From Microbacterium trichothecenolyticum (lineage in GTDB: Bacteria > Actinomycetota > Actinomycetes > Actinomycetales > Microbacteriaceae), in assembly GCF_030818955.1 (NCBI RefSeq), contig NZ_JAUTBF010000001.1, positions 806,001 to 870,000 on the forward strand: 64,000 nt of DNA, given 5' to 3'. This document shows positions 19,624 through 33,519 of this stretch, piece after piece. The notes under the pieces are model-generated. The model had not been told where the DNA came from, made no database searches, and saw only the letters and a list, made by a program, of their open reading frames with translations. Positions within the stretch are counted from its first letter, which is position 1. The number at the start of each line of letters is the position of its first letter. The translations under genes were made by a program, and so were the position numbers.

Positions 19624-20508
19624 ATGACCGACACCGGAACCTCGCGCGTCAAGCGCGGCCTCGCCGAGATGCTCAAGGGCGGCGTGATCATGGACGTCGT
19701 CACCGCCGAACAGGCCCGCATCGCCGAGGACGCCGGCGCCGTCGCCGTCATGGCGCTCGAGCGCGTGCCCGCCGACATCCGCGCTCAGGGCGGCGTCGCG
19801 CGCATGAGCGACCCCGACCTCATCGACGACATCATCGCCTCGGTGTCGATCCCCGTCATGGCGAAGGCCCGCATCGGTCACTTCGTCGAGGCGCAGGTCC
19901 TGCAGGAGCTCGGCGTCGACTACATCGACGAGTCCGAGGTGCTCTCGCCGGCCGACTACATCAACCACATCGACAAGTGGAACTTCACCGTTCCCTTCGT
20001 CTGCGGAGCCACGAACCTGGGCGAGGCCCTGCGCCGCATCACCGAGGGCGCGGCCATGATCCGCTCCAAGGGCGAGGCGGGCACCGGCGACGTGTCGGAG
20101 GCGACCAAGCACATCCGCACGATCCGCGCCGAGATCAACGCGCTGCGCGCCAAGACGAAGGACGAGCTGTACGTCGCGGCCAAGGAGCTGCAGGCCCCGT
20201 ACGAACTCGTCGCCGAGATCGCCGAGACGGGGAAGCTCCCTGTCGTGCTGTTCACCGCCGGGGGAGTGGCCACGCCCGCCGACGCCGCCATGATGATGCA
20301 GCTCGGGGCCGACGGCGTGTTCGTCGGCTCGGGCATCTTCAAGTCGGGTAACCCCGCCCAGCGTGCCGCGGCGATCGTGAAGGCCACCACCTTCCACGAC
20401 GACCCCAAGGTCGTCGCCGAGGCCTCGCGCGGCCTGGGCGAGGCGATGGTCGGCATCAACGTCGCCGACCTGCCCGCGCCGCACCGCCTCGCCGAGCGTG
20501 GCTGGTAG
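19624..20508 (+). CDS. pdxS: Pyridoxal 5'-phosphate synthase subunit PdxS
   Basis: Synthase subunit that makes PLP from ribose 5-phosphate, glyceraldehyde 3-phosphate and ammonia. 294 residues, a (beta/alpha)8 barrel. The lysine in [11 protein letters not shown] and the [13 protein letters not shown] and [11 protein letters not shown] phosphate-loop segments are conserved. It overlaps pdxT by 11 bp. Confidence 0.97.
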
Positions 20509-21115
20509 CGCCCGCGTCGGCGTGCTCGCCCTGCAGGGCGACGTGCGCGAACACCTCGCGGTGCTCACCGCCCTCGGCGCCGACGCGCGACCCGTGCGTC
20601 GGCCCCAGGAGCTCGCCGCCGTCGAGGGGCTCGTGCTCCCCGGCGGCGAGTCGAGCGTCATCGACAAGCTCGCCCGCGCGTTCGGGATGCAGCAGCCCAT
20701 TCGCGAGGCGATCGCAGCCGGGATGCCGATGTATGGCACGTGCGCGGGCCTCATCCTTCTCGCGGACCGCATCGACGGAGCCATCGAAGGACAGCAGACG
20801 TTCGGCGGCCTCGACGCGCGCGTCGCCCGCAACGTCTTCGGCAGCCAGACGGCCTCGTTCGAGACCGACCTCGACGTCCCCACCCTCGGCGACCCGCCGG
20901 TGCACGCGGTCTTCATCCGTGCGCCCGCGGTGACGGAGTGGGGACCGGATGCCGAGCCCCTGGCATCCCTTCCCGACGGACGTGTCGTGGCGATCGAGCA
21001 GGGGGCCCTGCTCGGCACGGCGTTCCACCCGGAGTCGACGGGCGAGACGCGCTTCCATGCGCGCTTCCTCGACCGCGTGCGCAACCGACGCGGCGCGGAC
21101 GTCGTCGCATCGTAA
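20498..21115 (+). CDS. pdxT: Pyridoxal 5'-phosphate synthase glutaminase subunit PdxT
   Basis: Class I glutaminase that supplies ammonia to PdxS. 205 residues with LPGGESSVI, nucleophile cysteine in YGTCAGLIL, and the His-Glu pair in FHPEST. The GTG start lies inside the end of pdxS. In related genomes yebC normally follows; here the two are separated by the 11.6-kb island. Confidence 0.96.
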
Positions 21116-21160
21116 ACTGGAGCAATGTCCGGACGCCTCGCATGACGAGGGTCACGGGCC
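21100..21160 (+). other. attL-like left junction (yebC 5' end + P' arm)
   Basis: Left of the core is the native yebC promoter end: TAAACT (21113), six bases, then ATG at 21125. Right of the core the yebC sequence is lost after ATGTCCGGAC and is replaced by an arm containing TGACGAGGGTCACGG. This arm resembles the right arms of the four internal sites. A stop codon (TGA at 21143) ends the frame after six codons. An inverted repeat CCTCG-catga-CGAGG lies in the arm. Confidence 0.75.
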
Positions 21161-21235
21161 GGAGCATGTCGCGCGACCTCAGACTCGGATGAGGACTCGA
21201 GTCGATACCTCAATCGCCCGCGAGACACTGCTCAC

Positions 21236-21658
21236 CTACTGCGTGAGCGACTCGAGCAGGTGCGCGGTGCCCGTCGGGTAGAGCGGACGGTCCATTGTGC
21301 TGATCGGCGCCCACACGACCGGACTTCCTTCATCGAGTACATGCAGTTCAGCGTCGAGCGGCACCGCCTCGATCTCGGCGGACTCGACGGCGAAAACGTG
21401 AGCGATCTCGTGACCCCGGTTTCCCTCGTACACGAAGATGTTCTCGACAACTGCGAGCAGTGTCACCCGCCCCAGTTCGACGCCCAGCTCCTCATCGAAT
21501 TCACGACGCAACGCCTGTTCCGCGGTTTCTCCGAACTCGATGCCGCCACCGATGGCTCGATGAAAGTCCTCACCCTCCACGGCGTCCGTCCCGTTCAGCA
21601 CGAGAACGTGCCCGGCCTTGACCGGGAGTCCGACGGAGATGTTTCGGATGGAGGCCAT
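21236..21658 (-). CDS. Nudix hydrolase (cassette 1 cargo)
   Basis: 140 residues from the ATG at 21658. The Nudix box is intact: GGIEFGETAEQALRREFDEELGV fits GX5EX7REUXEEXGU in full. Nudix enzymes hydrolyse nucleoside diphosphates linked to another moiety; the substrate cannot be told from sequence. It is the only gene of cassette 1 and points toward the attL side. Confidence 0.88.
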   Translation of the reverse strand: MASIRNISVGLPVKAGHVLVLNGTDAVEGEDFHRAIGGGIEFGETAEQALRREFDEELGVELGRVTLLAVVENIFVYEGNRGHEIAHVFAVESAEIEAVPLDAELHVLDEGSPVVWAPISTMDRPLYPTGTAHLLESLTQ

Positions 21659-21779
21659 GCGATTGACCCTAGGACGGGCGGTGGAGTGTGTCACTCGACC
21701 GCGCTGAGCCCGAGGAGACGGCCGCTGCCGCGGGTCGGCGCAGCGGGCAGAGGGTCGCGACATAGATCGCCGCGGGCTC

Positions 21780-21850
21780 GCAGCATCCCAGGATGAAGTT
21801 GCAGCATGTCCATGGATCCCACATGACGGGGGATACGGATCACCCGGCGC
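21780..21850 (+). other. Internal att-like site A
   Basis: Core ATGTCC at 21806. The left arm (CCAGGATGAAGTTGC) is a diverged form of the arm at sites B and C. The right arm contains ACGGGGGATACGGATCACCC, nearly identical to sites B and C. The frame from ATG ends after six codons (TGA at 21824). It marks the boundary between cassettes 1 and 2. Confidence 0.7.
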
Positions 21851-21947
21851 AGACGTCATGCGATCTGCGGAAGGACGTCCGCACCGTCACGCCGTTCTGG
21901 TCACAAAAGTCGCTGCCGGCGTGGGACGGGTGCTGCATGATGGAGCA

Positions 21948-22784
21948 ATGTCGTCGGGATCGAACCGTCATCCTGTGGTGCTGCTTCACGGCTGGCCGGT
22001 CACAGAGGGGCACTGGCGGCATCTGACCCCGCGGCTCGAGCAGGCAGGCTTCGACGTCGTCCCCGTTACGCTGCCGGGTCTCGGCGCAGCACCTGAGGAA
22101 GACCAGAGCCTTCGGAAGGCCGACCTCGCCCACTGGCTGCGGTCGTTCCTGGATCGACGGGGGATTACGCGCTTCGCACTGATCGGCCACGATTGGGGCG
22201 CGACGGTCGCCGTGCTCCTCGCCGGCGAGCTGGGCTCTCGTGTCACCGCGCTCGTCATCGAGGAGGAGATCCTCCCCGGAATCGATATCGACATCCCCGC
22301 CGCAGGCCGTGACCACTATCCCGAGTGGCACGGACCCTTCAACCGCGCCGTCGGTCTCGCCGAACGCCTCGTCCCGGGACGCGAGGCTGTGTACTACGGT
22401 CTATTCCTTCAGCAGAGCGCAGGCCCGGCAGGACTCGACGATGACGTGACGCGGTCGTACGTGAATGCCTACTCCGCGCCGGGTGTTTCGGAAGCAGGGT
22501 TTGGCTACTACCGCACCCGCTCAGACGACGTCAACTATGTTCGGCGTCTGCTCACTCGACGCATCACGCCGCCGGTGCTAGCGATCGGCGGACGGTTCGC
22601 CATGGGCTCCGCCGTCGGGGACGGCATGCGCGCCGTGGCTGAGGATGTGACGAGCGTCGTTCTCGACGACTCCGGGCACTACCCGCTCGAGCAGGAGCCC
22701 GAGGAGGCCGGACGCGCGGTCATCCAGTTCCTTCGCAAGCGTCACGACAGAACGAGCACCGTCGTGGCACGCGGTCAGACATGA
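21948..22784 (+). CDS. Epoxide hydrolase-like alpha/beta hydrolase (cassette 2 cargo)
   Basis: 278 residues from the ATG at 21948 with TGGAG upstream. The motifs HGWPVTEGHW (oxyanion hole), GHDWGATVA (aspartate nucleophile) and DSGHYPLEQEP (catalytic histidine) define the HDWG group, which includes epoxide hydrolases and haloalkane dehalogenases. The aspartate nucleophile argues against an esterase. It is the only gene in cassette 2. Confidence 0.85.
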   Translation: MSSGSNRHPVVLLHGWPVTEGHWRHLTPRLEQAGFDVVPVTLPGLGAAPEEDQSLRKADLAHWLRSFLDRRGITRFALIGHDWGATVAVLLAGELGSRVTALVIEEEILPGIDIDIPAAGRDHYPEWHGPFNRAVGLAERLVPGREAVYYGLFLQQSAGPAGLDDDVTRSYVNAYSAPGVSEAGFGYYRTRSDDVNYVRRLLTRRITPPVLAIGGRFAMGSAVGDGMRAVAEDVTSVVLDDSGHYPLEQEPEEAGRAVIQFLRKRHDRTSTVVARGQT

Positions 22785-22834
22785 CGGCCGCGGGGACGGA
22801 TGGACCATGTGCGCCACAAGAACGTCCATCGCGC

Positions 22835-22935
22835 GTCACCCACGATAAAGTTGCCCTATGTCCATAGTCGCCGCACAAAGGGGGATACGGATCACCCGAC
22901 ATTCGCCACATAAAGGGGGATACGGATCATCCGAC
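22835..22935 (+). other. Internal att-like site B with duplicated right arm
   Basis: Core ATGTCC at 22858. The left arm CACGATAAAGTTGCCCT is identical to site C and contains TAAAGT six bases before the ATG. The right arm has AAAGGGGGATACGGATCACC, and a second copy of the same arm (ATAAAGGGGGATACGGATCA) follows 34 bp downstream. At the codon where the other sites have a stop, this one reads CAA (22876), so the frame runs on to 23049. Bases 22785-23199 hold no gene that I can support apart from this site. Confidence 0.72.
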
Positions 22936-23199
22936 GCGGCGGCCGGGGAAAGCATTCTTCGCGCGGCTATAGCGGTCGCCGAACGCACACGCTTCTGCGT
23001 ATTAACGGCCGGGGCGCGAGCCCGCCCTCTCAAACCGGGCCGCCTCTGAGTAGCAAAAATTCTCAGCGAGCACTTTCGCGTTGGCGGTCGCGAGCCGCTC
23101 GTCTGACAGTTGAAGGCGCAGCAGCTCTCGAATCCGCGCATTTGTGTTCGAATGATCGTTACTAAGCGCGAAGGTGGGGCCGCCGCTACAATCAGCGGC

Positions 23200-23583
23200 A
23201 TGACGCAGCACCAAGCGATGCTCGTGTACGACGGTGACTGCGCATTCTGCACGACATGGGTGACCCGCCTCAAGAACACCCTTGGCGTGTTCCCCGAGGC
23301 GCAGCCCTGGCAATGGCTTGATTTGAAACAGTTCGACCTCACAGATAGCGATGTGAGAAGCGCTGCCTGGTTCTTCCGGGGTGGCGAGGCATTCCGGGGA
23401 CATGCTGCATTCGGTGCAGTCTTGCGCATGCAAGATTCGCTCGGCTTGAGATTCCTCGGGAACCTCCTCGTGACTCCACCGTTCTCGTGGCTCGCGAGAG
23501 TTGGATACTTCTTCATTGCTCGCTACCGGCATCGCCTTCCGGGAGGAACACCTGCCTGCGCGATGCCGAATCAGCGAAGCTAA
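23200..23583 (+). CDS. DUF393 thiol-disulfide oxidoreductase-like protein (cassette 3 cargo)
   Basis: 127 residues beginning MTQHQAMLVYDGDCAFC. The motif YDGDCAFCTTW is the DUF393 signature, where the CxxC resembles a thioredoxin-type redox pair. The middle (WQWLDLKQFDL, then AWFFRGGEAFRGHAAFGAVLR) follows the family. Third codon positions are less GC-rich than in core genes, in line with acquired DNA. Its redox partner is unknown. Confidence 0.85.
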   Translation: MTQHQAMLVYDGDCAFCTTWVTRLKNTLGVFPEAQPWQWLDLKQFDLTDSDVRSAAWFFRGGEAFRGHAAFGAVLRMQDSLGLRFLGNLLVTPPFSWLARVGYFFIARYRHRLPGGTPACAMPNQRS

Positions 23584-23639
23584 ATCAGACCCTCGGCGCG
23601 AAAATTCTCGACGCGCTCCCGAAATCCCATCCGACGCTC

Positions 23640-23815
23640 GCGTTGGTGCGCCGCCCATAGGTTCGGCGGGTCCCCCTCGTCCATGCCGGCGCGATGCGGC
23701 CGCTCCGGCCGCTGATCGCCCGCGTGATCGTCGATCCGAAGCGACCCGCCGGGCAGCGCCAGATTCTGCGCTGAACAATCATCCCGGCGTAAGAGGACGA
23801 CGCCGAACCCGGTAC
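23640..23815 (+). pseudogene. Decayed 3' end of a second serine integrase
   Basis: The plus-strand frame reads RPLIARVIVDPKRPAGQRQI, then stop, TIIPA, stop, EDDAEPGT, stop. This aligns with the intact integrase C-terminus (TPLIARVEVFPVRPAGQRHI ... RIVPAWEDDADTGE), with two tryptophan codons turned into stops. A further stop lies upstream at the expected position of another tryptophan. It is followed by the same hairpin and att-like arm as the intact integrase, so it is the remnant of the recombinase of cassette 3. Confidence 0.75.
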
Positions 23816-23836
23816 CTAAGCCCCAGAAGCACAAGA

Positions 23837-23862
23837 GGCCCGCGGCTTGGTAGCCGCGGGCC
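23837..23862 (+). terminator. Hairpin after the integrase remnant
   Basis: GGCCCGCGGCT pairs with AGCCGCGGGCC around TGGT. The stem is almost the same as that after the intact integrase (32703-32732), which shows that terminator and att arm travel together. Confidence 0.75.
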
Positions 23863-23865
23863 GTT

Positions 23866-23930
23866 CGTAACCCACGATAAAGTTGCCCTATGTCCATGGG
23901 CGCCACGTAACGGGGGATACGGATCTCTGA
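23866..23930 (+). other. Internal att-like site C
   Basis: Core ATGTCC at 23890. The left arm CACGATAAAGTTGCCCT equals that of site B, with TAAAGT six bases before the ATG. The right arm is AACGGGGGATACGGATC. The frame ends after six codons (TAA at 23908). Bases 23931-24033 hold nothing that I recognise. Confidence 0.72.
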
Positions 23931-24033
23931 TGCGCTCGCGAACAAGAGCTGCGCGTCAATGGCATAAGGGGCAGCGACCACGCCGAAATCTGTGCTGCCG
24001 GGACTTACACGAGCGCACCCGCTCGCGACGAAT

Positions 24034-24465
24034 TCAGAACTCTTGGAACGCGCGGGCTCGAATACGTTGCGTGCTCACGGCTTGGGCGTTGAGTGCGACA
24101 CACCAACTCGGATACACCCGGAACCCGCGCTTGCCGGGCCCCTTCCCCGACGTCACACCCAGTTCGACGAGATGCGCAGCTGTGGAACGAAACATCCCGC
24201 GTCTGTCATTCTGCGCGACGAAGACGAACAGCCCCGCCGCAGGATCCAGGTCGCCGAACGGAATGATCTTCCCCTTCGCATCCCGTCGCCAAAATGCGAC
24301 GAAAGCTCCCGACTTGGTGGGCGTGTTCCGTGCAGTCCGGATGTGCCAGGCGTCCGCATCTATCTGCACGATCCCAGACTCGTAGTCGCTGCTTTGGGCC
24401 TCGGGGATCACCTCGGCGGCCACTCCCATCGCCGCGGAGTAGACCGCAAAGGCATCAAACTGCAT
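24034..24465 (-). CDS. MepB family protein (cassette 4 cargo)
   Basis: 143 residues from the ATG at 24465 (an ATG four codons upstream is possible). YESGIVQIDADAWHIRTAR, TKSGAFVAFWRRDA.GKIIPF and KGPGKRGFRVYPSW match the MepB family, first named from the Staphylococcus mepRAB multidrug locus. Biochemical function is unknown. Its start overlaps the end of the GNAT gene by 11 bp, forming the last gene of a VOC-GNAT-MepB operon. Confidence 0.83.
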   Translation of the reverse strand: MQFDAFAVYSAAMGVAAEVIPEAQSSDYESGIVQIDADAWHIRTARNTPTKSGAFVAFWRRDAKGKIIPFGDLDPAAGLFVFVAQNDRRGMFRSTAAHLVELGVTSGKGPGKRGFRVYPSWCVALNAQAVSTQRIRARAFQEF

Positions 24466-24931
24466 GCGGCCGCGCATTCTCGCATGGACGAGTGAGGCGC
24501 AGGTGGAGCAACGGATACGGGCGACCGGCCTCGTCGGTCGCGCTGCGATTGACGACCTCGAATCCGCGATGGGCGTAGAAGCCTGCGGCCGAGACGTTCT
24601 GCTCGTTGACATCGACTTTCGTCACACCGTGGTTCTCGACCGCATGCGCGAGCAGAGCCGTGCCGACACCCCCGCCGTGCTGCGCCGCGTCGACGAACAG
24701 CATCTCCAGCACTCCGTCGAGCACACCCGAAAATCCCACCGGTCGACCTTCGCGCTCGGCGACCGACAGAACGACGGCGGGAAAGTAGTCGGACTGCAGC
24801 CGGGCCTCGATCTCCTCTCGATCCGCCTCGGCGAGGAAGTCGTGCGTCGCATAAACGGCCCCGCGCCAGATCTCCGCGAGCCACGGGTACTCTTCCGGTC
24901 CCCTCACAGACCGGATGGTCAGCGGTTCCAT
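24455..24931 (-). CDS. GNAT N-acetyltransferase, YjaB-like (cassette 4 cargo)
   Basis: 158 residues. The acetyl-CoA loop is FVDAAQHGGGVGTALL (Q/R-x-x-G-x-G/A type), followed by KVDVNEQNVSAAGFYAHRGFEVV, the usual GNAT motif B. The sequence resembles the YjaB group. The substrate is unknown; with VOC and MepB neighbours a detoxification role is possible but unproven. Confidence 0.85.
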   Translation of the reverse strand: MEPLTIRSVRGPEEYPWLAEIWRGAVYATHDFLAEADREEIEARLQSDYFPAVVLSVAEREGRPVGFSGVLDGVLEMLFVDAAQHGGGVGTALLAHAVENHGVTKVDVNEQNVSAAGFYAHRGFEVVNRSATDEAGRPYPLLHLRLTRPCENARPHAV

Positions 24932-24934
24932 GAA

Positions 24935-25300
24935 CTACCGGTTACTGAGGGCGAGTCGATTACCCTCACTGTCTCGTAACTCGGCGACGATCAGCCCATC
25001 CGCAACCTCCTGAGCGGGGTACAAGATCGACCCACCGAGTGCCCTCACACGTCCCAACACGTCCTCGACGTCGTCGACCGTCACGTACACCCGGGTGCCG
25101 TCGATGGACGGCACATACGACTCGCCTTCCATGAGAGCGATGACCGCGCCCTCGGCGTCCGAGTCCTCATCCAGAACGCAGCAGGGGTGCGCGTCGATGA
25201 CCGTTCGACGCAGCGACACACCGAACAACTGTCCGTAGAAGTAAGCCGCGCGGTCCAGATTCTCCACGGGAATCTCGATATATGTGGCTCGCACCCGCAT
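24935..25300 (-). CDS. VOC/glyoxalase-bleomycin resistance family protein (cassette 4 cargo)
   Basis: 121 residues from MRVRATYIEIPV. The pattern IEIPVENLDRAAYFYGQLFG, a central beta-hairpin and GLIVAELRDSEGNRLALSN is a standard VOC module. These proteins include metal enzymes and antibiotic-binding resistance proteins; residues seen do not decide which. It is the first gene of the minus-strand VOC-GNAT-MepB operon, with 3 bp to GNAT. Confidence 0.85.
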   Translation of the reverse strand: MRVRATYIEIPVENLDRAAYFYGQLFGVSLRRTVIDAHPCCVLDEDSDAEGAVIALMEGESYVPSIDGTRVYVTVDDVEDVLGRVRALGGSILYPAQEVADGLIVAELRDSEGNRLALSNR

Positions 25301-25526
25301 CGCTCTCCGCTCCCTCAAAGACCTCTACGATCGCACACATGGCGAAGCGCGTTCGAACGAACCTCACCTCCCCCTCGTCGCGTGGATGGCGGTCATCGTC
25401 GCCGTGGTGTACCTGATCGTCACCAGCGGGATTCTGTCGCTGATCTTCGATTCGGACGTCGAGTCGGGCGGCGGGGAGCGGCCGACCGCTCATGCCTCCT
25501 CGGGTGAAATTCGCTTGTCGGTCTGA
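25284..25526 (+). CDS. Small single-span membrane protein
   Basis: Up to 80 residues; the convincing part is one transmembrane segment (LPLVAWMAVIVAVVYLIVTSG) with an acidic tail. The ATG at 25284 would overlap the divergent VOC start by 17 bp, so a shorter start is likely. An ATG at 25339 in another frame begins MAKRVRTN, raising the chance of a small indel. Confidence 0.4.
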   Translation: MARTRIALRSLKDLYDRTHGEARSNEPHLPLVAWMAVIVAVVYLIVTSGILSLIFDSDVESGGGERPTAHASSGEIRLSV

Positions 25527-25630
25527 CATTCAGCGCGTATTTTCCCCACCGATGTGGGTCGCAGGGCGATCATCGCCAACCGCCGATCCGAAAACGTCGC
25601 TGCATCTCCGCCCACGAAAGGTTTCGAGCC

Positions 25631-26044
25631 ATGAGAATCCGAGGGTTCGGCGTCGTGGCGGTACTGCTCAGCAGTTCTCTCCTCGTCGCCTGCACCCCGC
25701 CCGTGCTCGCGTGCCCCGCGATCGGGTTCGTCTACACGGACCCCGTGAAGCTCGAGATCAGCTCGGAGGCCCTGGGCGACGGCAGCGTGGCAGCGTGTTT
25801 CGGGTCAGGATGCGAGCCGACCGCGATCGTTCGTGGCGAGGACGGGACGTGGGAGGTTCCGCCCGTGGCGCCGTACGTCGCCTCGGACACCGTAGGCCTG
25901 GACCCCGGGGATCACATCCGGATCGTGGTCGTCGACGGTTCGGGAGAGGTCACCCGTGACGAGGTGATCGAGATTCCGTACACCACCACCTCGGACGGGT
26001 TCTGTCCCGGCCCCATCGAGTTCCACCCTGTCGTTCTGTCGTGA
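25631..26044 (+). CDS. Putative lipoprotein (cassette 4 cargo)
   Basis: 137 residues with a lipoprotein signal (VVAVLLSSSLLVAC, lipobox LVAC, Cys21). The mature part has several cysteines (ACPAIG, AACFGSGCEP, GFCPGP), probably disulfide bonded, and a beta-rich pattern. No family recognised. Confidence 0.7.
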   Translation: MRIRGFGVVAVLLSSSLLVACTPPVLACPAIGFVYTDPVKLEISSEALGDGSVAACFGSGCEPTAIVRGEDGTWEVPPVAPYVASDTVGLDPGDHIRIVVVDGSGEVTRDEVIEIPYTTTSDGFCPGPIEFHPVVLS

Positions 26045-26169
26045 CCTGCTCTCAGGCTTCCCCGTCGCCAGATCGCGGCGACGACGGCATGGCGCGCGAC
26101 ATGATCGCGCACGCGCGCCGCGCGGCGACCTCGATGACGGCGGGGTGCCCGCTGCCGGCAGCCGCTGGG

Positions 26170-26240
26170 CCCGTTGTCCATCTGCCGTAATGTTGGGTGC
26201 ATGTCCATCAACGCCCAGTGACCTGGGTTACGTGCGGCCG
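26170..26240 (+). other. Internal att-like site D
   Basis: Core ATGTCC at 26201. The left arm (ATGTTGGGTGC, preceded by CGTTGTCCATCTGCCGTA) closely matches the arm at the yebC end. The right arm TGACCTGGGTTACG resembles that at attL. The frame ends after six codons (TGA at 26219). It separates cassettes 4 and 5. Outside the site, bases 26045-26462 show no gene. Confidence 0.7.
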
Positions 26241-26462
26241 CCGTCAGGCGATCGGGCGGCCCTCGCAGGCGAGAGTGGCAACGCCGCGGATCAGCGCGGG
26301 AGCGTCTTCGTGGGGAGGAGCCCTCCGCTCTCAAACAACCCGAGCGTGGGAACGACGTAACGCGGTGGACGACACCGAGTCGATCACATGTGGCGGAGAC
26401 GGCGGCAGTCGAGGTCTCGGCGTGCGCTTCGTGGCGGAGCTGGTCAGCACTAGTTTAGGGTC

Positions 26463-26633
26463 ATGAGCAAAAGGCCTTCCAAAGCAAGAGCGGCGATCGC
26501 CGTCGCCCTGATTCTCGGGGCTGTGACGATCGCCGCTCTTTTGGTAGCGGTTGCCTTCGGGGTTTTCGCAGGGGATACGCTTCAGTGCTACATGCCGAAC
26601 GACAACCGCACCTTCACGCCGGTCTGCTCGTGA
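26463..26633 (+). CDS. 56-residue small membrane protein
   Basis: Starts MSKRPSKARAAIAVALILGA and has one long hydrophobic span, then a short outer tail with two cysteines (LQCYMPNDN and PVCS). TAGTTT lies six bases before the ATG, fitting a leaderless transcript. It is too short for routine calling but has a clean membrane-protein pattern. Function unknown. Confidence 0.5.
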   Translation: MSKRPSKARAAIAVALILGAVTIAALLVAVAFGVFAGDTLQCYMPNDNRTFTPVCS

Positions 26634-26636
26634 AGG

Positions 26637-26793
26637 TCAGTAATTGGTGTTCGTCATGAGGGTAAGGCCGCCATTCATGTTCGCGATTGCAGGGTAGATC
26701 GGGGAGATCAGGGCCGTTCGTGAGCACTTCCGGCCGTTGCACTGCAAGCCTTCGCAGGAAGTACCACCGTTTCGGATGCCGGAAATGATTCCC
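26637..26793 (-). pseudogene. Possible small ORF truncated by the IS3 element
   Basis: Minus-strand frame GIISGIRNGGTSCEGLQCNG to a stop at 26637, cut at its N-terminal side by the IS end. Beyond the IS, at about 28090-28134, a minus-strand start MSQKADSLYQHGSRE could be the missing beginning, but joining needs a one-base adjustment. Low certainty. Confidence 0.3.
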
Positions 26794-26862
26794 GGGACTG
26801 CTGCACGAGTAGGTGACATCTGATCTGGCTTGCCCGCGGGGTGGGCCTGGAAGGATGCCATC

Positions 26863-27171
26863 GTGCCAAAGCCCTACCCGTCCGAGTTCCGTGACGACGT
26901 CGTGCGCGTCGCCCAAAATCGCGAGCCCGGCGTGACGATCGAGCAGATCGCGGAAGACTTCGGTGTTCATCCGATGACACTGCAGAAGTGGTTGCGTCGC
27001 GCTGACATCGACTCGGGCGCCAAGCCCGGCCAGTCACGGTCCGAGTCCGCGGAGATCCGTGAGCTGAAGAAACGGAACCGGCTTCTCGAGCAGGAGAACG
27101 AGGTCCTTCGTCGGGCTGCGGCGTACTTGTCGCAGGCGAACCTGCCGGGAAAAGGCTCTACCCGCTCGTGA
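26863..27171 (+). CDS. IS3-family transposase OrfA
   Basis: 102 residues from the GTG at 26863. The helix-turn-helix (EFRDDVVRVAQN, then TIEQIAEDFGVHPMTLQKWLRRAD) binds the IS ends. A leucine-zipper-like C-terminus (EIRELKKRNRLLEQENEVLRRA) follows. The stop overlaps the orfB start (GTGA). Confidence 0.9.
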   Translation: MPKPYPSEFRDDVVRVAQNREPGVTIEQIAEDFGVHPMTLQKWLRRADIDSGAKPGQSRSESAEIRELKKRNRLLEQENEVLRRAAAYLSQANLPGKGSTRS

Positions 27172-28056
27172 CGGAGCTCGCCGCTGCAGGGATCCCTGTG
27201 ACGGTGACGTGTCGGGTGCTCAAGCTCTCCCGCCAGCCCTATTACCGGTGGTTGGCGAACCCCATCACCCCGAGTGAGGTGGTGGAGGCGTATCGCGCGA
27301 ACGCGCTGTTCGATGCCCACCGCGATGACCCCGAGTTCGGGCACCGGCTCCTCGCCGACGAGGCCCGCGACAACGGCGAGGCGATGTCGGACCGGACCGC
27401 ATGGCGGATCGCCTCCGCGAACGGCTGGTTCAGCGCGTTCGGCAAGCCCAAGCGCGGCAAGCACCGCAAGCCGGGCCCGCCGGTTCACGACGAACCTCTG
27501 CGCCGTCGTCGACGAGCACGGCCAGACCCGGCACGTGTTCGCCGCGGACGCGCCGAACGAACTCTGGCTCACAGACATCACCGAGCATCGGACCGCGGAG
27601 GGCAAGCTCTACCTCTGCGCGATCAAGGACGTGTACTCCGGCCGGATCGTGGGGTACTCGATCGACTCCCGGATGAAGTCGCGCCTGGCCGTTCAGGCGC
27701 TCGAGAACGCCGTTGCGATGCGCGGCGACGTCGCCGGTTGCGTCGTGCATTCGGACAGGGGATCTCAGTTCCGCAGCCGGAAGATGCTCCGCGCACTGGC
27801 CCGTCACCGCATGGTCGGGAGTATGGGCAGAGTCGGGTCGAGCGGAGACAACGCGGCCATGGAGAGCTTCTTCGCGCTGCTACAGAAGAACGTCCTCGAC
27901 CGCCGCTCGTGGACCACCCGCGAGCAGCTACGCATCGCGATGGTGACCTGGATCGAGCGAACCTACCACCGCCGCCGACGTCAGGCCCGCCTGGGCCGTT
28001 TGACGCCCATCGAGTTCGAGACCATCATGAACACGACCGCCGCACTGGCGGCGTGA
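27168..28056 (+). pseudogene. IS3-family transposase OrfB, frameshifted
   Basis: The N-terminal HTH_21 part (TAWRIASANGWFSAFGKPKRGKHRKPGPPVHD) is in one frame. After one extra base near 27492-27495 the catalytic rve core continues in the next frame: LWLTDITEH (first D), VVHSDRGSQF (second D) and NAAMESFFALLQKN (E). The DDE triad is therefore present. Repaired length is about 295 residues. Confidence 0.88.
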
Positions 28057-28139
28057 CTAGGAACTGTCACCTATCCGTGCAGCAGTCCCCTCTCGACTGC
28101 CATGCTGGTACAGCGAATCTGCTTTCTGAGACATGCGCG

Positions 28140-28361
28140 TCAGCCCGCGTCCTCTACACGACGTCGTTTCCGCGGGCGCGCCATGAACCATGCAATCGGG
28201 CCCACCACGGGCAACAGCACCGCGACCAAGATCCAAGGTGCTCGAGCATCGGTGGACAGCTCCGCGTTGCGCGAAATGCTCACGAGCGAGGCAACCAGCA
28301 GAACCGCGGCCGCTACTAGGAGCACTGACCACAGTAGGTCAGGTGTAGCTAGTGAGAACAT
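28140..28361 (-). CDS. PLDc_N-domain small membrane protein
   Basis: 73 residues with two transmembrane segments (LLWSVLLVAAAVLLVASLVS and WILVAVLLPVVGPIAWFMA) and a basic tail. The second segment with the P-V-x-G-P-x-x-W pattern is the phospholipase D N-terminal (PF13396) motif found in small membrane proteins. Function unknown. The following gap, 28362-28524, shows no gene. Confidence 0.7.
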   Translation of the reverse strand: MFSLATPDLLWSVLLVAAAVLLVASLVSISRNAELSTDARAPWILVAVLLPVVGPIAWFMARPRKRRRVEDAG

Positions 28362-28524
28362 AATGCCCCTTTCGTCGACCTATCTGACTTTCTGCTGCCC
28401 AAGCTAGCTGATGTAAGCGTTTATCAGCCCGCCGGACAATCGCAGACGCGAGGATGTTCCCGCATTAGAAACATTTAATCCTCCGATCGAGCCACCTCGC
28501 TCAAGCCATCCAGGGCACTCCTCG

Positions 28525-28977
28525 CTACCCGGATAGCGTGGAGCGGTACTCGCGCCTGGTGAGGGGGCGACCCTCGGCGTCCGCGGGGACGGTCTGCACG
28601 TTCAGCACGCCCAGGAAGGACGACACGACGGTCAGGCCGACGGTGACAAGCGACGCGACGTGCGCCACGGTGTCGGAGCCGACGAGCCCGAACGCGAGGC
28701 CGACAGCGCCGCCCGCGGCCGCGAAGCCGTAGACGAGCCCGCGGCCCGTGACGTCGAACCAGCGCGCGGCCGCGGAGCCGCGCAGCAGGGCGAGCGAGAG
28801 GAGGCCCTGCGCCAGCGCGAGGCCGGAGCCCGCGAGGCCCACCACGGCGGCCGACTGGCCGTCCGTGATGAGCCCCGCGGTGACGCCGAGCGTCGAGAGC
28901 GTGCCGAGCGCGGCGTGGAGCGCCTGGCGGCGAGCATCCGTGAGCCATGCCCGGAGGCGATCGAGAGTCTTCTTCAT
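28525..28977 (-). CDS. Holin-like phage membrane protein
   Basis: 150 residues beginning MKKTLDRLRAWLTDARRQAL. It has three to four hydrophobic segments (ALGTLSTLGVTAGLI, GLALAQGLLSLALL, AAGGAVGLAFGLVG, LVTVGLTVVSSFLG). Size, topology and position next to an endolysin suggest a phage holin or holin-associated protein. Its ATG overlaps the stop of the next gene upstream (ATGA). Confidence 0.55.
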   Translation of the reverse strand: MKKTLDRLRAWLTDARRQALHAALGTLSTLGVTAGLITDGQSAAVVGLAGSGLALAQGLLSLALLRGSAAARWFDVTGRGLVYGFAAAGGAVGLAFGLVGSDTVAHVASLVTVGLTVVSSFLGVLNVQTVPADAEGRPLTRREYRSTLSG

Positions 28978-29258
28978 TCCATGTCCTTTCGACGGTGGTA
29001 GGTAGGCCAGGCGGGGATATCCGCGGGATCGACGCACGGGGCCTCGAGCAGCACGCGGCGGCACGCCGAGGCGTGCTCCTCCGCCAAACGACGCCGGTAG
29101 GCCTCCTCGTCGACATCCCGCCGCACGCGATCAATCTCGCGGCGCTGGCGGCCCGCCCGGCCGGTGAGTGCGCCCCACAGCGCAGCCGCGATCTTCGGCA
29201 CCAGGACGGTGCCCCCTACAGCGGTCAGCAGCAGCGCGGCGTCACGAGCGATGTCCAT
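28974..29258 (-). CDS. Small phage-type membrane protein with coiled-coil tail
   Basis: 94 residues: one N-terminal transmembrane span (LLLTAVGGTVLVPKIAAALW), then a charged helical region (RRDVDEEAYRRRLAEEHASA). The layout recalls Rz-like or holin-partner proteins, but no family is recognised. Part of the four-gene lysis-like operon on the minus strand. Confidence 0.55.
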   Translation of the reverse strand: MDIARDAALLLTAVGGTVLVPKIAAALWGALTGRAGRQRREIDRVRRDVDEEAYRRRLAEEHASACRRVLLEAPCVDPADIPAWPTYHRRKDME

Positions 29259-29261
29259 GCG

Positions 29262-29684
29262 TCACCTCCGGGGCTCGAAGTCGTGCCCCCGGATCAGCAG
29301 CAGACGAACGATGTAGAACAGCAGCGCGACGATGAGCACGCCGAGCTGGGTCAGGAGCGAGCCGGACGACTGGAAGTGCAGCGTCGCGACGACGACGCCA
29401 TAGATGCCGATGCCGAACAGGCACGCCCCGACGGCCGCGCGCTCGAGCTGCCAGTACCCCGGCAGGACGGTGAGCGCGCCGACGGAGCCGCCGACGATCC
29501 AGAAGACCGCCCACGAGACGGAGAGGATCGGCCCGAGAGCGCCCTCGATCGTCGTCGGCGGGTTCGTCAGCGTCGCGACGCCCGTGCAGAGCGTCACGAC
29601 GTAGCCGAGCAGGAAGACCACGCGCAGCACGCGCGGCTCAGCGATGCGGCGCCATGCCCGGCGGGCCGCGCGGATCAGTTCCAC
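29262..29684 (-). CDS. Four-span phage-type membrane protein
   Basis: 140 residues from the GTG at 29684, which lies inside the end of the endolysin gene (10-bp overlap). Four hydrophobic segments: VVFLLGYVVTLCTGVA, ILSVSWAVFWIVGG, AAVGACLFGIGIYGVVV, LGVLIVALLFYIVRLLLI. Similar proteins occur in actinophage lysis cassettes; function inferred from position only. Confidence 0.6.
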   Translation of the reverse strand: MELIRAARRAWRRIAEPRVLRVVFLLGYVVTLCTGVATLTNPPTTIEGALGPILSVSWAVFWIVGGSVGALTVLPGYWQLERAAVGACLFGIGIYGVVVATLHFQSSGSLLTQLGVLIVALLFYIVRLLLIRGHDFEPRR

Positions 29685-30559
29685 GGGAGGCGGAACTTCA
29701 CGACGGCCCAGAGCAGGTACTTGGCCGTCTCGTATCCGCCGATGCCGTCGACCGCGAGCGTGCCGTAGCCGTTCTTGGCGGCCATCGCCTGCTCGAACCG
29801 CACGATTTCCTGCGTCCGCGGGCCGTCCTGGCCGTCGACCCCATCGGGGCCGAGATCGTGGCCGAGCGCGGCGGCGAGCCGCTGCACGTAGCGGACCCAC
29901 GTCGAGCCGTAGCGCGAGCGCGCGGGCTGGCCGGGCGTCTCGTCCGGGCGAGCCCGGTAGTTGAGGAACGCCCAGAGGAGGTAGGTCACCGTGTCGGGGC
30001 CGCCGATCCCGTCGCGAGCGATGCGCCCGAAGCCGTTCCCTTCAGCCGCGCCCTGCTCGTGGAGGACCGCCGCCTGGGTGGCGAGGCCGTCCTTGCCGTC
30101 GCGGCCGCCCGTGTTGTGGCCGAACTCGCCGAGCAAGTCCTGAGTGAACAGGACGAAGCCGCCGCCGTAGCGGGCGCGGGCGGGGAAGTTCTCGCCGGAG
30201 CCGCCAGCAGCGCCGCCGCCGCGGAACTCGAAGTGCACCGGGTCGGTCTTCGGGTAGGGCTGCACGAAGCCGTAGGGGCCGCACACAGCGGTGAAGCGGG
30301 CGGGGTCGGCCACGTCCACGGCGATGCCGCCGTTCGCGACGTGGTTGGAGCGCTCGGCGGGCCGAGCGGGCTCGTACAAGTACGGGGGCCGGTTGGCCGG
30401 GCCGCCCTGATCCCAGCGCCGGATGAGGCCGTTCTGCGACTCGACGGAGCGGCCCGCCGAGTTGACGCCGAACACGCCGTGATCGTCCTCGAGGCGATCG
30501 AATGCGGCGGCCGCGTCATCGCGCAGCCAGTGGCCGCGGTGGTTCTTGAGGGTAGCCAT
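29675..30559 (-). CDS. Phage endolysin: M15/VanY-type peptidase with C-terminal peptidoglycan-binding repeats
   Basis: 294 residues. The metal-binding residues of a D-Ala-D-Ala carboxypeptidase-like (M15) domain are visible: H73 and D82 in SNHVANGGIAVDVA and H109 in DPVHFEF. Two repeats follow (each G-H-x-x-GG/PDG-x-DG-x-x-TQ), with YLLWAFLNYR and YLLWAVVKFR between or after, the form of a cell-wall binding module. It is the first gene of the minus-strand lysis module. No capsid, tail, terminase or portal genes accompany it. Confidence 0.85.
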   Translation of the reverse strand: MATLKNHRGHWLRDDAAAAFDRLEDDHGVFGVNSAGRSVESQNGLIRRWDQGGPANRPPYLYEPARPAERSNHVANGGIAVDVADPARFTAVCGPYGFVQPYPKTDPVHFEFRGGGAAGGSGENFPARARYGGGFVLFTQDLLGEFGHNTGGRDGKDGLATQAAVLHEQGAAEGNGFGRIARDGIGGPDTVTYLLWAFLNYRARPDETPGQPARSRYGSTWVRYVQRLAAALGHDLGPDGVDGQDGPRTQEIVRFEQAMAAKNGYGTLAVDGIGGYETAKYLLWAVVKFRLPWN

Positions 30560-30585
30560 TTCGTTCCTTTCGATGGCATGACAAA

Positions 30586-30614
30586 GGCCCCCACCGCGGG
30601 ATGCGATGGGGGCC
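30586..30614 (-). terminator. Terminator left upstream of the endolysin gene
   Basis: On the minus strand GGCCCCCA pairs with TGGGGGCC and is followed by TTTGTC. It lies in front of the endolysin, so it would end a transcript from a gene farther upstream, and no such gene remains. It looks like the residue of deleted phage DNA. The rest of 30560-30787 has no supported gene. Confidence 0.6.
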
Positions 30615-30787
30615 GGGACTACGCACTTTGCTTCGGCCGGCGCGGGGGTCGGCTGAGCAATATGCGCAGGGTTCTAGCGGACGACGGTCTACACCTCATC
30701 GGCGGTTGCTGCCTCGACCGGGGTGGGGGAGGCCCAGGGGGGCCGGACTGATATACGAAACCGAAGAGATTGCGATCACCCGAAGAA

Positions 30788-31186
30788 ATGCACAGCACTA
30801 CCATCCGGGCCGGGGAGGTCTACGGCCCGAACTACGACCCGACGCCCGAGGCCGCGAAGCACGGCATCCAGATCGTGCACGACCTCGACGCCGACGACGC
30901 GGGCGAATGGCACCCTGAATCTCGGACCATCCGCGTTCGTACCTCGGATCGCTCGCACTTCCGCAGCACCGCCACCTATCAACTCGCCTATGCGCTCGAC
31001 CCCGGCGCGACGCGGGAGAGCGCGGTGGCATTTGCCATGAGCCGCTTGGTCGATAGCGAAGACCTTGCGGAGCTGGCCACCGTGACGAACGACCCCACCC
31101 TGTTGGCGAAGATCCTTCGCGTCACCCCGGGCCTCCTGCGTACGCACCTCGAAATCAACGTCGGATCGCGGGTGGCGGTCGGATGA
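30788..31186 (+). CDS. ImmA/IrrE-like protein with lost HExxH motif, coupled to the integrase
   Basis: 132 residues from the ATG at 30788 (an ATG at 30770 is possible). The layout H-x-PESRTIRVR..., STATYQLAYALDPG, RESAVAFAMSRLVD and LAKILRVTPGLLRTHLE follows ImmA/IrrE metallopeptidases. The zinc motif HELAH, however, reads YQLAY (residues 64-68): each changed residue differs by a single base. It should therefore be catalytically dead. The stop overlaps the integrase start (ATGA), so the two are co-translated. A role as integrase partner, for example directionality factor or regulator, is inference. Confidence 0.6.
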   Translation: MHSTTIRAGEVYGPNYDPTPEAAKHGIQIVHDLDADDAGEWHPESRTIRVRTSDRSHFRSTATYQLAYALDPGATRESAVAFAMSRLVDSEDLAELATVTNDPTLLAKILRVTPGLLRTHLEINVGSRVAVG

Positions 31187-32688
31187 GCGCCCGGATCACA
31201 CGCCTTCCGGCTCCGGCCGTAGAGCGCGCCGTGATCTACCTACGGCAGTCGACCTATAAAGAGGAGTCGATCAGCCTCGAAGTGCAGGAACAGGCCGCCC
31301 GCCAGCACGCCGAGGAACAGGGATACACCGTCGTCGGAGTCGAGTCCGATCCTGGCATCACCGGGCGGTCCTGGAAGCGCCGTGCGGGCGTGCAGCGCGC
31401 CATGAACGCGCTCGAAACGGGAGAGGCCGAGGTCGTCATCGTTTGGCGCTGGTCGCGCCTCAGCCGCAGCCGCCGGGACTGGGCGGTCGCGGCGGACATG
31501 GCCGATGTCGTCGGGGGACGCATCGAGTCAGCGACCGAGCCGAACGATCGGACGGCGGCCGGACGGTTCGCCCGCGGCGTGATGACCGAACTCGCCGCGT
31601 TCGAGTCCGAGCGGATCGGGGAGCAGTGGGCGGAGGCCCCGGCGCATCGCATCGCCCGCGGCCTCCCCGCCACGGGAGGCCCCCGGTTCGGCTACCAACA
31701 GGTCGACGGTGCCTACGTCGTCGATCCCGTGACCGGCCCCGCCCTCGCCGAGCTGTACCGGCTTTATCTGGGCGGATGGGGGAGCGTCCAGCTCGTCCGT
31801 TGGCTCCACGAGCGCGGGATCATGCGCGGCAAGGACAACGACCGGCCGTGGAAGTATCAGGACGTCTTGCAGACGATGGATGCCGGGTTCGGAGCCGGGC
31901 TCCTCGTCCGCACGCCGCCGAAGCCGAAGGGCACGAACATCTCGACGCCGAAGATCGCCGTCTGGCTTCGCGAGTTCCGGCCCGGCGCACATGAGCCGGT
32001 GATCGACCGCGCGACGTGGGACGCCTACGTCGTCGCCCGACGCGCCCGCAGCCGCCACTCGGCCCCGATGCTCTCCGGCCTCCTTCGCTGTATGGATTGC
32101 CAAGGAGCGATGAGCGGGCAGAGCGTCACCGGCAAGCGCGGGTTCTACCGATGCACCCTCGGCGCGAGCACGACGAGCGTCCGAAGCGTTCAGGTGTACA
32201 TGGACGTCCTCGACGCCGCGGTGGAAGAGTGGGTGCTGGCGTTCGCCGACAGCATCAGCTTGCAGCGCGAGGCACAGGAGCAGACGACGGAGCACGGGAA
32301 CCGCGTGCAGATCACCGCGCGGCGCGCGCAGCAGCAGCTCGGTCGGATTGAGGACCGCCTCGCGAGACTCACGCTCAAGTACGTGGATGACGCGATCCCG
32401 CGCGACATGTACGAGCGCCTCCGCGCCGAGCTTGAGGCGGAGCGCGACGACGCCGAGCGGCGCGTGCAGGATGCGACGAGGAACCCGGTGCGGGATGCCG
32501 CCCCGGCGGCCGTGTCGCCCGATCTGCGCCGCCAGTGGCAGAACATGACGCCGAGCAAGCGCAACCACGTTCTGACGCCGCTGATCGCCCGCGTCGAGGT
32601 GTTTCCGGTGCGGCCCGCCGGACAGCGCCATATCCCGCGCTGGCGCATCGTCCCGGCGTGGGAGGATGACGCCGACACGGGGGAGTAA
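31183..32688 (+). CDS. Large serine recombinase (site-specific integrase)
   Basis: 501 residues. The catalytic domain (1-150) has the nucleophile S23 in IYLRQST and the arginine-rich WRWSRLSRSRRDW at 88-100. A recombinase domain follows (GPRFGYQQVDG to about 290). The zinc-ribbon has C303, C306 and C324, but the usual fourth cysteine is replaced in GASTTSVRS. A coiled coil at about 370-450 precedes a conserved tail. The gene ends 72 bp before yebC and its att half-site, the expected place for an integrase. Confidence 0.93.
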   Translation: MSARITRLPAPAVERAVIYLRQSTYKEESISLEVQEQAARQHAEEQGYTVVGVESDPGITGRSWKRRAGVQRAMNALETGEAEVVIVWRWSRLSRSRRDWAVAADMADVVGGRIESATEPNDRTAAGRFARGVMTELAAFESERIGEQWAEAPAHRIARGLPATGGPRFGYQQVDGAYVVDPVTGPALAELYRLYLGGWGSVQLVRWLHERGIMRGKDNDRPWKYQDVLQTMDAGFGAGLLVRTPPKPKGTNISTPKIAVWLREFRPGAHEPVIDRATWDAYVVARRARSRHSAPMLSGLLRCMDCQGAMSGQSVTGKRGFYRCTLGASTTSVRSVQVYMDVLDAAVEEWVLAFADSISLQREAQEQTTEHGNRVQITARRAQQQLGRIEDRLARLTLKYVDDAIPRDMYERLRAELEAERDDAERRVQDATRNPVRDAAPAAVSPDLRRQWQNMTPSKRNHVLTPLIARVEVFPVRPAGQRHIPRWRIVPAWEDDADTGE

Positions 32689-32702
32689 TCGAGCAACGAC
32701 AA

Positions 32703-32732
32703 GAGGCCCGCGGTCTACCAGCCGCGGGCCTC
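32703..32732 (+). terminator. Terminator between integrase and attR
   Basis: GAGGCCCGCGG pairs with CCGCGGGCCTC around TCTACCAG. It insulates yebC from integrase transcription and is shared, nearly unchanged, with the integrase remnant at 23837. Confidence 0.8.
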
Positions 32733-32790
32733 GTTGTCTATCTACCGTTATGTTGGGTACATGTCCGGACACTCCAAATGGGCCACGACC
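32733..32790 (+). other. attR-like right junction overlapping the yebC start
   Basis: The left arm (ATGTTGGGTAC, preceded by GTTGTCTATCTACCGTT) matches internal site D. The core ATGTCC at 32761 is also the first two codons of yebC, and everything to the right is native yebC. TATGTT at 32749 sits exactly six bases before the ATG and can act as a new -10 element giving a leaderless yebC mRNA. Confidence 0.75.
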
Positions 32791-33519
32791 AAGCACAAGA
32801 AGGCGGTCATCGACTCCCGCCGCGCCAAGTCGTGGGCCAAGCTCATCAAGAACATCGAGGTCGCGGCGAAGCTCGGTGGAGCCGACCTCCAGGGCAACCC
32901 GACCCTCTTCGACGCCGTTCTCAAGGCCAAGAAGACCTCGGTCCCGAAAGACAACATCGACCGTGCGATCAAGCGCGGCGCCGGCATCGGCGGCGAAGCG
33001 GTCGAGTACTCCTCGATCATGTACGAGGGCTACGGACCCAACGGTGTGGCCTTCCTCATCGAGTGTCTGACCGACAACAAGAACCGCGCCGCGGCCGAGG
33101 TGCGTACCGCCCTCAGTCGTAACGGCGGCACGCTCGCCGACCCCGGCAGCGTCGCGTACAACTTCAGTCGCAAGGGCGTCATCGTGGTCCCGAGCGAAGG
33201 CACCAGCGAAGACGACGTCATGCTCGCCGTGCTCGAGGCGGGCGCTGAAGAAGTCGAGCCGCACGGCGAAGGCTTCGGAGTCATCACCGAGGCCTCCGAC
33301 CTCGTCTCGGTCCGCAGCGCCCTCCAGGATGCCGGTATCGAGTACGACTCCGCCGACGTGGAGTTCGTCCCCTCGCTCAAAGTCGAGGTCGACGCCGACA
33401 CCGCGCGGAAGGTGTTCCGCCTCATCGACGCGCTCGAAGACAGCGACGACGTGCAGAACGTGTACACGAACTTCGACCTCAGCCCCGAGGTACAGGCCGA
33501 GCTCGAGAACGACGAGTAA
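32761..33519 (+). CDS. yebC: YebC/PmpR family DNA-binding / translation-associated protein
   Basis: 252 residues, full length, starting [21 protein letters not shown], the family signature. YebC proteins bind DNA as regulators, and some act on ribosomes at proline stretches. The start ATG is inside the integration core, so the coding sequence is intact but its promoter and 5' end now come from the island. It is followed by ruvCAB, the conserved order. Confidence 0.97.

Follow-up and report, generated by a model that had tools for sequence, protein, structure and literature searches.

In integrons, cassettes of gene size are lined up next to an integrase gene, an arrangement that is also seen in the DNA described here: a stretch of 64,000 nucleotides from Microbacterium trichothecenolyticum (contig NZ_JAUTBF010000001.1, positions 806,001 to 870,000; hereafter the window), in which four small cassettes and one longer element carrying a large serine integrase gene stand one behind another at the start of the gene yebC. 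The integron recombinase IntI is a tyrosine recombinase, its attC sites are folded single strands, and its cassettes share a promoter and are mostly held in one orientation.

Several other described systems, for which we draw on extracts of the papers cited, resemble the yebC locus in one respect or another. In the accretion of integrative mobilizable elements (IMEs) and cis-mobilizable elements (CIMEs), insertion is likewise followed by decay to an integrase-less element flanked by attachment (att) sites, with a newcomer entering the attR next to the target gene (PMC5704250). The islands at ssrA of Dehalococcoides are also serine-recombinase islands in tandem at one conserved gene, and 15 of them have no integration module (PMC3146451). 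The staphylococcal and Enterococcus cassette chromosomes (SCC and ECC) at rlmH also combine a serine recombinase, a single housekeeping gene and remnants, with multiple attR sites in 16 of 32 ECCs (PMC6222049). In Mycobacterium abscessus T36, two phages occupy one attB, and it was proposed that the second had inserted at an att site of the first (PMC9934374).

Here, we argue that the start of yebC is probably an attB that accretes elements with phage-type serine integrases, that these elements decay to cassettes, and that at least one such cassette has apparently been mobilized in trans. The literature searched had no paper joining a serine integrase, yebC and attB, none on an integron-like gene-cassette array of a serine integrase in Microbacteriaceae, and none on a leaderless promoter in attP.

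Attachment Sites in Tandem at the Start of yebC

An earlier note on this DNA had placed six ATGTCC cores at 21125, 21806, 22858, 23890, 26201 and 32761, and all of them are found; they are called attL, A, B, C, D and attR below. The hexamer itself occurs 21 times in the window as against 24.6 expected, which is the level of chance, so the case rests on the arms that flank the cores. As the note had also claimed, the outer sites are half yebC and half foreign, and the four inner sites have a foreign arm on either side of the core, being chimeric junctions of a left (P) and a right (P') element arm. The core-to-core distances of cassettes 1-4 are 681, 1052, 1032 and 2311 nt.

When 16 nt of right arm were compared with the right arm of attL in a relative that carries a single cassette (genome G235), the scores were 10 at attL, 14 at A, 15 at B and C and 9 at D, against 4 at attR, whose right half is yebC, and 2-5 at the other 15 cores of the window; a score of at least 9 is reached at 0.44% of window positions. 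The score of site B is not independent of this reference, because the cassette between B and C is homologous to that of G235. In a scan of both strands of the window with a motif derived from sites B and C, C, B and A and their near-palindromic reverse readings came out on top; attL scored 14 of 18, tied with one chance site at 9934, and D had 13 of 18, a background level, since its left arm is of another type. A 70-nt query of site B had no further match better than E 0.79 in its own genome, and the inner type of site is seen there in the array only and not at unrelated positions. The two arm families that had been proposed are upheld; the assignment of the attL right arm to the second of them is not, this arm having 17/30 matches to A and 15/30 to D, so that its type is not clear.

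A short motif, GGGNNACG, stands 19 nt after the core (+19) in attL, A, B, C, D and the attL of G235, at +18 in the attL of another occupied relative (G092), while in attR the yebC half has it at +14, as have all five empty sites scanned; its frequency is 0.075% of window positions. In large serine integrases the zinc ribbon domain (ZD) motif is reported to lie 5 bp nearer the centre in attB than in attP (extract of PMC3783163). That shift is present here in the right half only (+19 in the P' arms, +14 in yebC). A mirrored motif at 17 in the left arms of B, C and G092 would, by symmetry, centre the site after ATGT, and sites B and C have the motif in both halves; it is degenerate in the left half of A, and the type-2 left arms and native left halves scanned do not have it at that position. 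The attB at yebC seems, from these motifs, to be carried mainly by its right half, inside the coding sequence.

Empty and Occupied Loci in Related Genomes

YebC was matched in 289 of 295 genomes of the genus, one per species, and among the matches listed the best 40 loci of other genomes were examined, 31 of them with a YebC 95-99% identical and nine more distant. Of the close relatives, 25 of 31 are unoccupied, with yebC 12-37 nt after the end of the match to the upstream gene pdxT; their sequence, of which catcgtaaactggagaaATGTCCGGACACTCC is an example, equals the outer halves of the window joined at the core. Loci with and without insertion both occur, and the intact pdxT-yebC junction is the one that the earlier note had predicted. 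Five of the 31 (G267, G149, G092, G072 and G235) have att footprints at yebC, and the remaining one (G166, locus L019) has 1.5 kb of other DNA, in which no att footprint was seen, between pdxT and a native-looking yebC promoter. The pdxT-yebC gap of the nine distant loci is 120-2517 nt, and two that were read showed no footprint. The idea that elements inserted repeatedly and site-specifically at a single attB, located at the start of yebC, is supported.

An exact pattern of a P arm at yebC matched nine of 366 genus genomes, two of which (G307 and G221) were unoccupied on reading; the seven that are left (G000, G235, G267, G054, G092, G072 and G149) are a lower bound, because the pattern is exact. 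The footprint of G267 is the weakest, with 8-17 of 30 matches to other arms. A 246-nt probe of site C matched 158 of the 366 genomes at E <= 0.01; G000, G235, G092 and G054 are taken as real, and the other matches (one, L083, was read) are put down to short stretches of G+C. G054 retains an integrase-end stub and a type-2 arm. G267 and G054 both have a segment with a LysM gene at yebC; the two segments agree at 84% and the pdxT genes at 81%, a comparison that says little.

A Cassette Shared by Two Species

Sites B and C enclose a unit that consists of a DCC1-like gene and the stub of an integrase gene, and that sits alone at yebC of G235. The two copies agree at 917/995 nt (92%) in the main piece and at 41/43 at the left end, both boundaries fall exactly at the cores in the two genomes, and outside the cores the identity is 20/60 and 25/60, a chance level. 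Synonymous divergence (dS) of the DCC1 gene is 0.176 and nonsynonymous divergence (dN) 0.028, values consistent with purifying selection on this gene; dS of the flanking genes is 0.567 (pdxT) and 0.365 (yebC), and the non-coding parts of the cassette are 91% identical (273/299 and 277/305). Most open reading frame (ORF) rows, many in wrong reading frames and some below the DCC1 value, were excluded from the dS comparison, and the rows judged to be real genes gave 0.26-0.50. Among 33 genomes the DCC1 gene part was found in two, that of the window and G235. The P' arm of this cassette is present twice in the window (22868-22935, 35 nt apart) and once in G235.

A tree drawn from 7.1 kb of flanking host DNA in 35 rows (one with 41% of the columns), by a quick method with support from the Shimodaira-Hasegawa-like approximate likelihood ratio test (SH-aLRT) only, places G235 with the empty loci L034 and L035 (support 95) and joins the window to G092 (support 99), whose cassette is a different one. 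Because the cassette has diverged less than its surroundings, the nearest relatives are empty and the stub and junctions are the same, the cassette was most likely exchanged after the species had split and after its integrase gene had been reduced to a stub. This suggests that it was carried by the integrase of another element, in trans. Cassettes 1-4 have indeed no working integrase, and their mobilization in trans, put forward in the earlier note for all of them, is supported for at least this one.

The Proximal Element, the Cassettes and Their Remnants

The coordinates of the array, its host flanks and its contents are collected in table 1.

Table 1. Features of the yebC locus in window coordinates.
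Feature	Position	Strand	Remarks
pdxT	20498..21115	+	left host flank, ORF; directly before yebC in 25/31 close relatives
attL	21095..21156	+	left half is that of the native yebC promoter, with TAAACT 6 nt ahead of core 21125-21130; foreign P' arm, GGGTCACG at +19
Cassette 1, NUDIX hydrolase ORF	21236..21859	-	PF00293 E 9e-13
Site A	21776..21841	+	P-P' junction, core 21806-21811
Cassette 2, alpha/beta hydrolase	21858..22784	+	PF00561 E 2e-18
Site B	22828..22893	+	P-P' junction, core 22858-22863; left motif CGTCACCC, right motif GGGATACG
Second P' arm copy	22903..22935	+	91% identical to first, 35 nt after it
Cassette 3, DCC1-like thiol-disulfide oxidoreductase	23200..23583	+	PF04134 E 5e-10 on 157-aa ORF 23110-23583
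Integrase gene 3'-end remnant	23708..23806	+	99 nt, 78% to 32577-32675
Terminator-like inverted repeat	23831..23862	+	84% to 32699-32730
Site C	23860..23925	+	P-P' junction, core 23890-23895; left motif CGTAACCC, right motif GGGATACG
Cassette 4, MepB-like protein	24034..24612	-	PF08877 E 9e-37
Cassette 4, GNAT acetyltransferase	24455..24931	-	PF13673; NF007807 above cut-off
Cassette 4, glyoxalase-like protein	24935..25318	-	PF00903 E 1e-6
Cassette 4, ORF without family match	25631..26044	+	lipoprotein-like signal by eye
Site D	26159..26236	+	type-2 P-P' junction, core 26201-26206; preceded by remnant like the terminator end before attR
IS3-family element	26794..28089	+	within element 5; inverted repeats of 25 nt; orfB divided between two frames
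Holin-like protein, membrane proteins, endolysin (29675-30559)	28525..30559	-	phrog_6116, phrog_8599, phrog_2649; Phage_holin_9 below cut-off
ORF overlapping integrase start	30770..31186	+	no family match; by eye, resembles an ORF ahead of the L007 integrase (71%)
Large serine integrase, 501 aa	31183..32688	+	open frame; PF00239, PF07508, PF13408; phrog_95 E 2e-84; PDB 9iu2, 3bvp
Terminator-like inverted repeat	32699..32730	+	between integrase and attR
attR	32731..32790	+	P arm, TATGTT 6 nt before core 32761-32766; yebC half, GGGCCACG at +14
yebC	32761..33519	+	target gene; core = codons 1-2

The yebC-proximal unit (element 5) has the one integrase of this kind that its genome holds at E <= 1e-60, a protein of about 500 residues in which Resolvase, Recombinase and zinc-ribbon domains are joined as in the large serine integrases of phages. 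The best identities to it are 49% in 295 genomes of the genus, 46% in 398 genomes of the family, 41% in phage records (best hit) and 28% in plasmids, and a search of genome_contigs returned no relative. Two viral contigs have relatives at 71% and 60%, and others at 55-76% come from metagenomes and Microbacterium, without genome context. On reading, the integrases of 60-71% identity in L007/L136, L008/L137 and L147 end at ATGTCG and then a GAGTCAGCC-like stretch. Because these relatives end at a different core, the specificity for yebC is probably derived within this integrase subfamily.

The 3.1-kb yebC insert of G072 (L028) has 2.65 kb at 72% identity to viral contig L007 (11894-14527); this shared DNA, with WXG100-like and hydrolase-like genes by eye, lies about 320 nt beyond the core beside the 71% integrase. 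The IS3-family element of element 5 has ends of 25 nt that are 92% complementary, and the same stretch is 73% identical to an unannotated human gut phage record. Searches for the arms elsewhere gave candidates that were set aside. The right-arm pattern matched 19 stretches in genome_contigs, in various bacteria and none titled Microbacteriaceae, as against about 30 expected by chance (arithmetic for 17 fixed bases); the same pattern and a wider attP consensus had no match in viral_contigs, and looser arm patterns matched 114 and 16 viral stretches. These viral matches are taken as chance, since of 154 loci none has GGGNNACG at +19 after ATGTCC and none encodes YebC.

Several of the small cassettes have remnants of a similar organization at their ends. 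The integrase-end stub before site C is also present in G235 and, in a shorter version, in G092; the 48 nt before site D are 85% identical to 32719-32766, the DNA that leads into attR; site A is preceded by a weak trace, and site B by the arm only. The stub and terminator remnants before C and D, with the weak one before A, suggest that several units once ended as element 5 does, with integrase gene, terminator and P arm. The decayed integrase that the earlier note had placed with the first arm type does adjoin site C; it amounts to just some 100 nt of 3' end, and its assignment to that type is by adjacency only. The ends of cassette 4 differ, the left one being type 1 and the right one type 2, and this cassette is probably a fusion of two elements by deletion.

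The N-terminal part of the NUDIX ORF of cassette 1 crosses site A, and a start near 21659 is more likely. For cassettes 1, 2 and 4 the 33 genomes had no comparably similar second copy, only weak partial matches: the NUDIX region of cassette 1 at 68-70% over about 200 nt in G220, G215 and G206 and, from the searches with these three cassettes, a match of 35 nt in G220, one of 361 nt (72%) in G243 and one of 86 nt in G219. A role of the cargo in defence was considered and dropped, a weak match of the NUDIX protein to PDC-S07 being the one PADLOC result. The DNA that separates the DCC1 gene from the integrase stub showed no resemblance to phage proteins.

Proposed Replacement of the yebC Promoter

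A TAnnnT box ends 6-7 nt before the ATG of the core in 10 of 11 P arms, as against a background of 0.19%, and likewise in the eight native left halves listed (seven empty relatives and the attL of the window); the 11 P arms are not independent, because they belong to few arm families. Some P arms have a terminator-like repeat ahead of them. With the box so close to the ATG, native yebC looks leaderless, and the insertion looks to have supplied it with a new -10-like box. After the cores at 21125, 21806, 23890 and 26201 and in L037 (attL, A, C, D and G235), ATG TCC is, on reading, followed by four codons and a stop. The native yebC promoter may now drive this six-codon frame, and the product may be a real peptide; the stop lies within the region of the integrase motif, and 14 of 598 ATGs have a stop at codon 7.

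How the Array May Have Grown

The history that we favor, and consider likely, would begin with the entry of elements by attP x attB recombination at ATGTCC, catalyzed by large serine integrases of one phage-type family. Of attB, the right half (GGGCCACG at +14, inside the yebC coding sequence) would survive every insertion and, as the attB motif was found in this half and none in the left one, the attR of a resident (P arm and yebC half) could be used as attB by a later element. New elements would then stack beside yebC, pushing the older ones toward pdxT and leaving chimeric P-P' junctions behind; the integrase and lysis genes in the proximal unit and the decayed units further out fit growth at the yebC side, without being proof of it. 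The residents would lose phage and integrase genes and shrink to P' arm, cargo and P arm, some of them retaining the integrase-end stub and the terminator. The integrase-less DCC1 cassette would nevertheless have moved, carried by an integrase in trans, and as a -10-like box comes with the P arms, 6-7 nt ahead of the ATG, yebC would probably keep a leaderless transcript. Insertion of a newcomer in attR has been described or proposed as a route of accretion (extracts of PMC5704250 and PMC9934374).

A number of observations weigh against this history. The three integrase relatives whose flanks could be read (60-71%) have a different core at their end, and neither a complete type-1 element nor a yebC-targeting phage was found in the searches made. 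Only one of the four dead cassettes was found a second time (33 genomes searched with each), the dS of its DCC1 gene amounts to 14 differences only, and the tree was drawn from 7 kb of flank by a quick method with SH-aLRT alone. The mixed ends of cassette 4, the unclear type of attL and the lack of a stub before B do not make a clean series. The empty relatives could be precise losses, but this alternative leaves the low divergence unexplained. Furthermore, characterized serine integrases, according to the extract of PMC3783163, do not recombine attP with attR or attL; either attR is tolerated here as a substrate, or recombination of attR with attL between loci is needed.

The latter route, in which two occupied yebC loci recombine attR x attL between molecules and homologous exchange follows without insertion of a circle, would give exactly P-P' junctions, and the reaction appears to be allowed with a directionality factor (from the extract of PMC3783163); it needs two occupied molecules in one cell as well as that factor, of which none was identified, no search aimed at it having been made, and we regard it as somewhat unlikely. 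Decay alone, with complete phages degenerating in place and the small cassettes immobile ever since, agrees with the phage lysis genes and integrase retained in element 5, with the eroded yebC footprints of G149, G072, G267 and G054, and with the absence of a second copy of cassettes 1, 2 and 4; two species share a truncated integrase end and a junction, however, even though their flanking genes differ more and the nearest relatives are empty, and we therefore hold this explanation to be unlikely. Homologous recombination, common as it is in bacteria, could have spread the yebC region together with its cassette, but beyond the cores the loci agree at 20/60 and 25/60 only, and the pdxT of G235 is not unusually close to that of the window (84.7%, mid-list); such a spread is very improbable.

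The earlier note went furthest in calling the system integron-like, a label that is only partly supported. In a true system of this kind the integrase would insert, excise and reorder cassettes. Gene-sized units, cellular cargo and a complete integrase at one end speak for it. The cargo lies on both strands, however, no variant arrays were seen, and excision at the inner sites would be an attP x attP reaction, which known enzymes do not perform (extract of PMC3783163); with a recombinase that is not IntI and a shuffling that would need attP x attP, this function is not supported, and we think it quite improbable. A bolder reading, to which we give less than even odds, is that a family of phage-type large serine integrases has given rise to minimal one-gene units (P' arm, cargo, integrase-end stub, terminator and promoter-bearing P arm), which pass from species to species although they lack an integrase, stack with the newest next to yebC and each replace its promoter. 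If true, this would be a serine-recombination analogue of integrons, and it would need attR to act as attB. Serine integrases are valued for doing one reaction only; four P-P' junctions, three of one arm type, indicate that a site already occupied does take up further elements, so that either attR works as attB or there is another route. A dead cassette common to two species means that a single gene may travel without its own recombinase and be missed by searches for integrase genes.

Comparison with Known Systems

Like accreted islands and CIMEs, the yebC locus has integrase-less, att-flanked elements in tandem at one target and chimeric inner att sites. In comparison with the IME/CIME case as given in the extract of PMC5704250, the enzyme here is a phage-type serine integrase, the target is a start codon and not a 3' end, and each unit has a single gene or a few; a Pfam scan of 15 proteins showed no conjugation protein, no search aimed at relaxases having been made. 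The ssrA islands differ in their CcrB-like enzyme with a smaller DsiA partner, their 20-bp repeats and their position at the ssrA 3' end, and the vcr islands at this gene in integration modules of 9-11 kb (extract of PMC3146451). SCC and ECC differ in their CcrAB pair, their site in the 3' region of rlmH and their size of tens of kb, and ECCs in tandem with more than one ccrAB were not directly observed in that study (extract of PMC6222049). Here there is no CcrA/CcrB at an rlmH 3' end; the target is yebC, and the integrase matches phrog_95 and phage integrases. In M. abscessus T36, unlike at yebC, both prophages are functional, and the 2a element is listed with a tyrosine integrase (extract of PMC9934374). 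As for integrons, serine recombinase domains take the place of IntI and the cassette genes lie on both strands. What we file as new in relation to known accretion is that a phage-type enzyme, a start codon as target and units of gene size are found together, in a stack that is five units deep.

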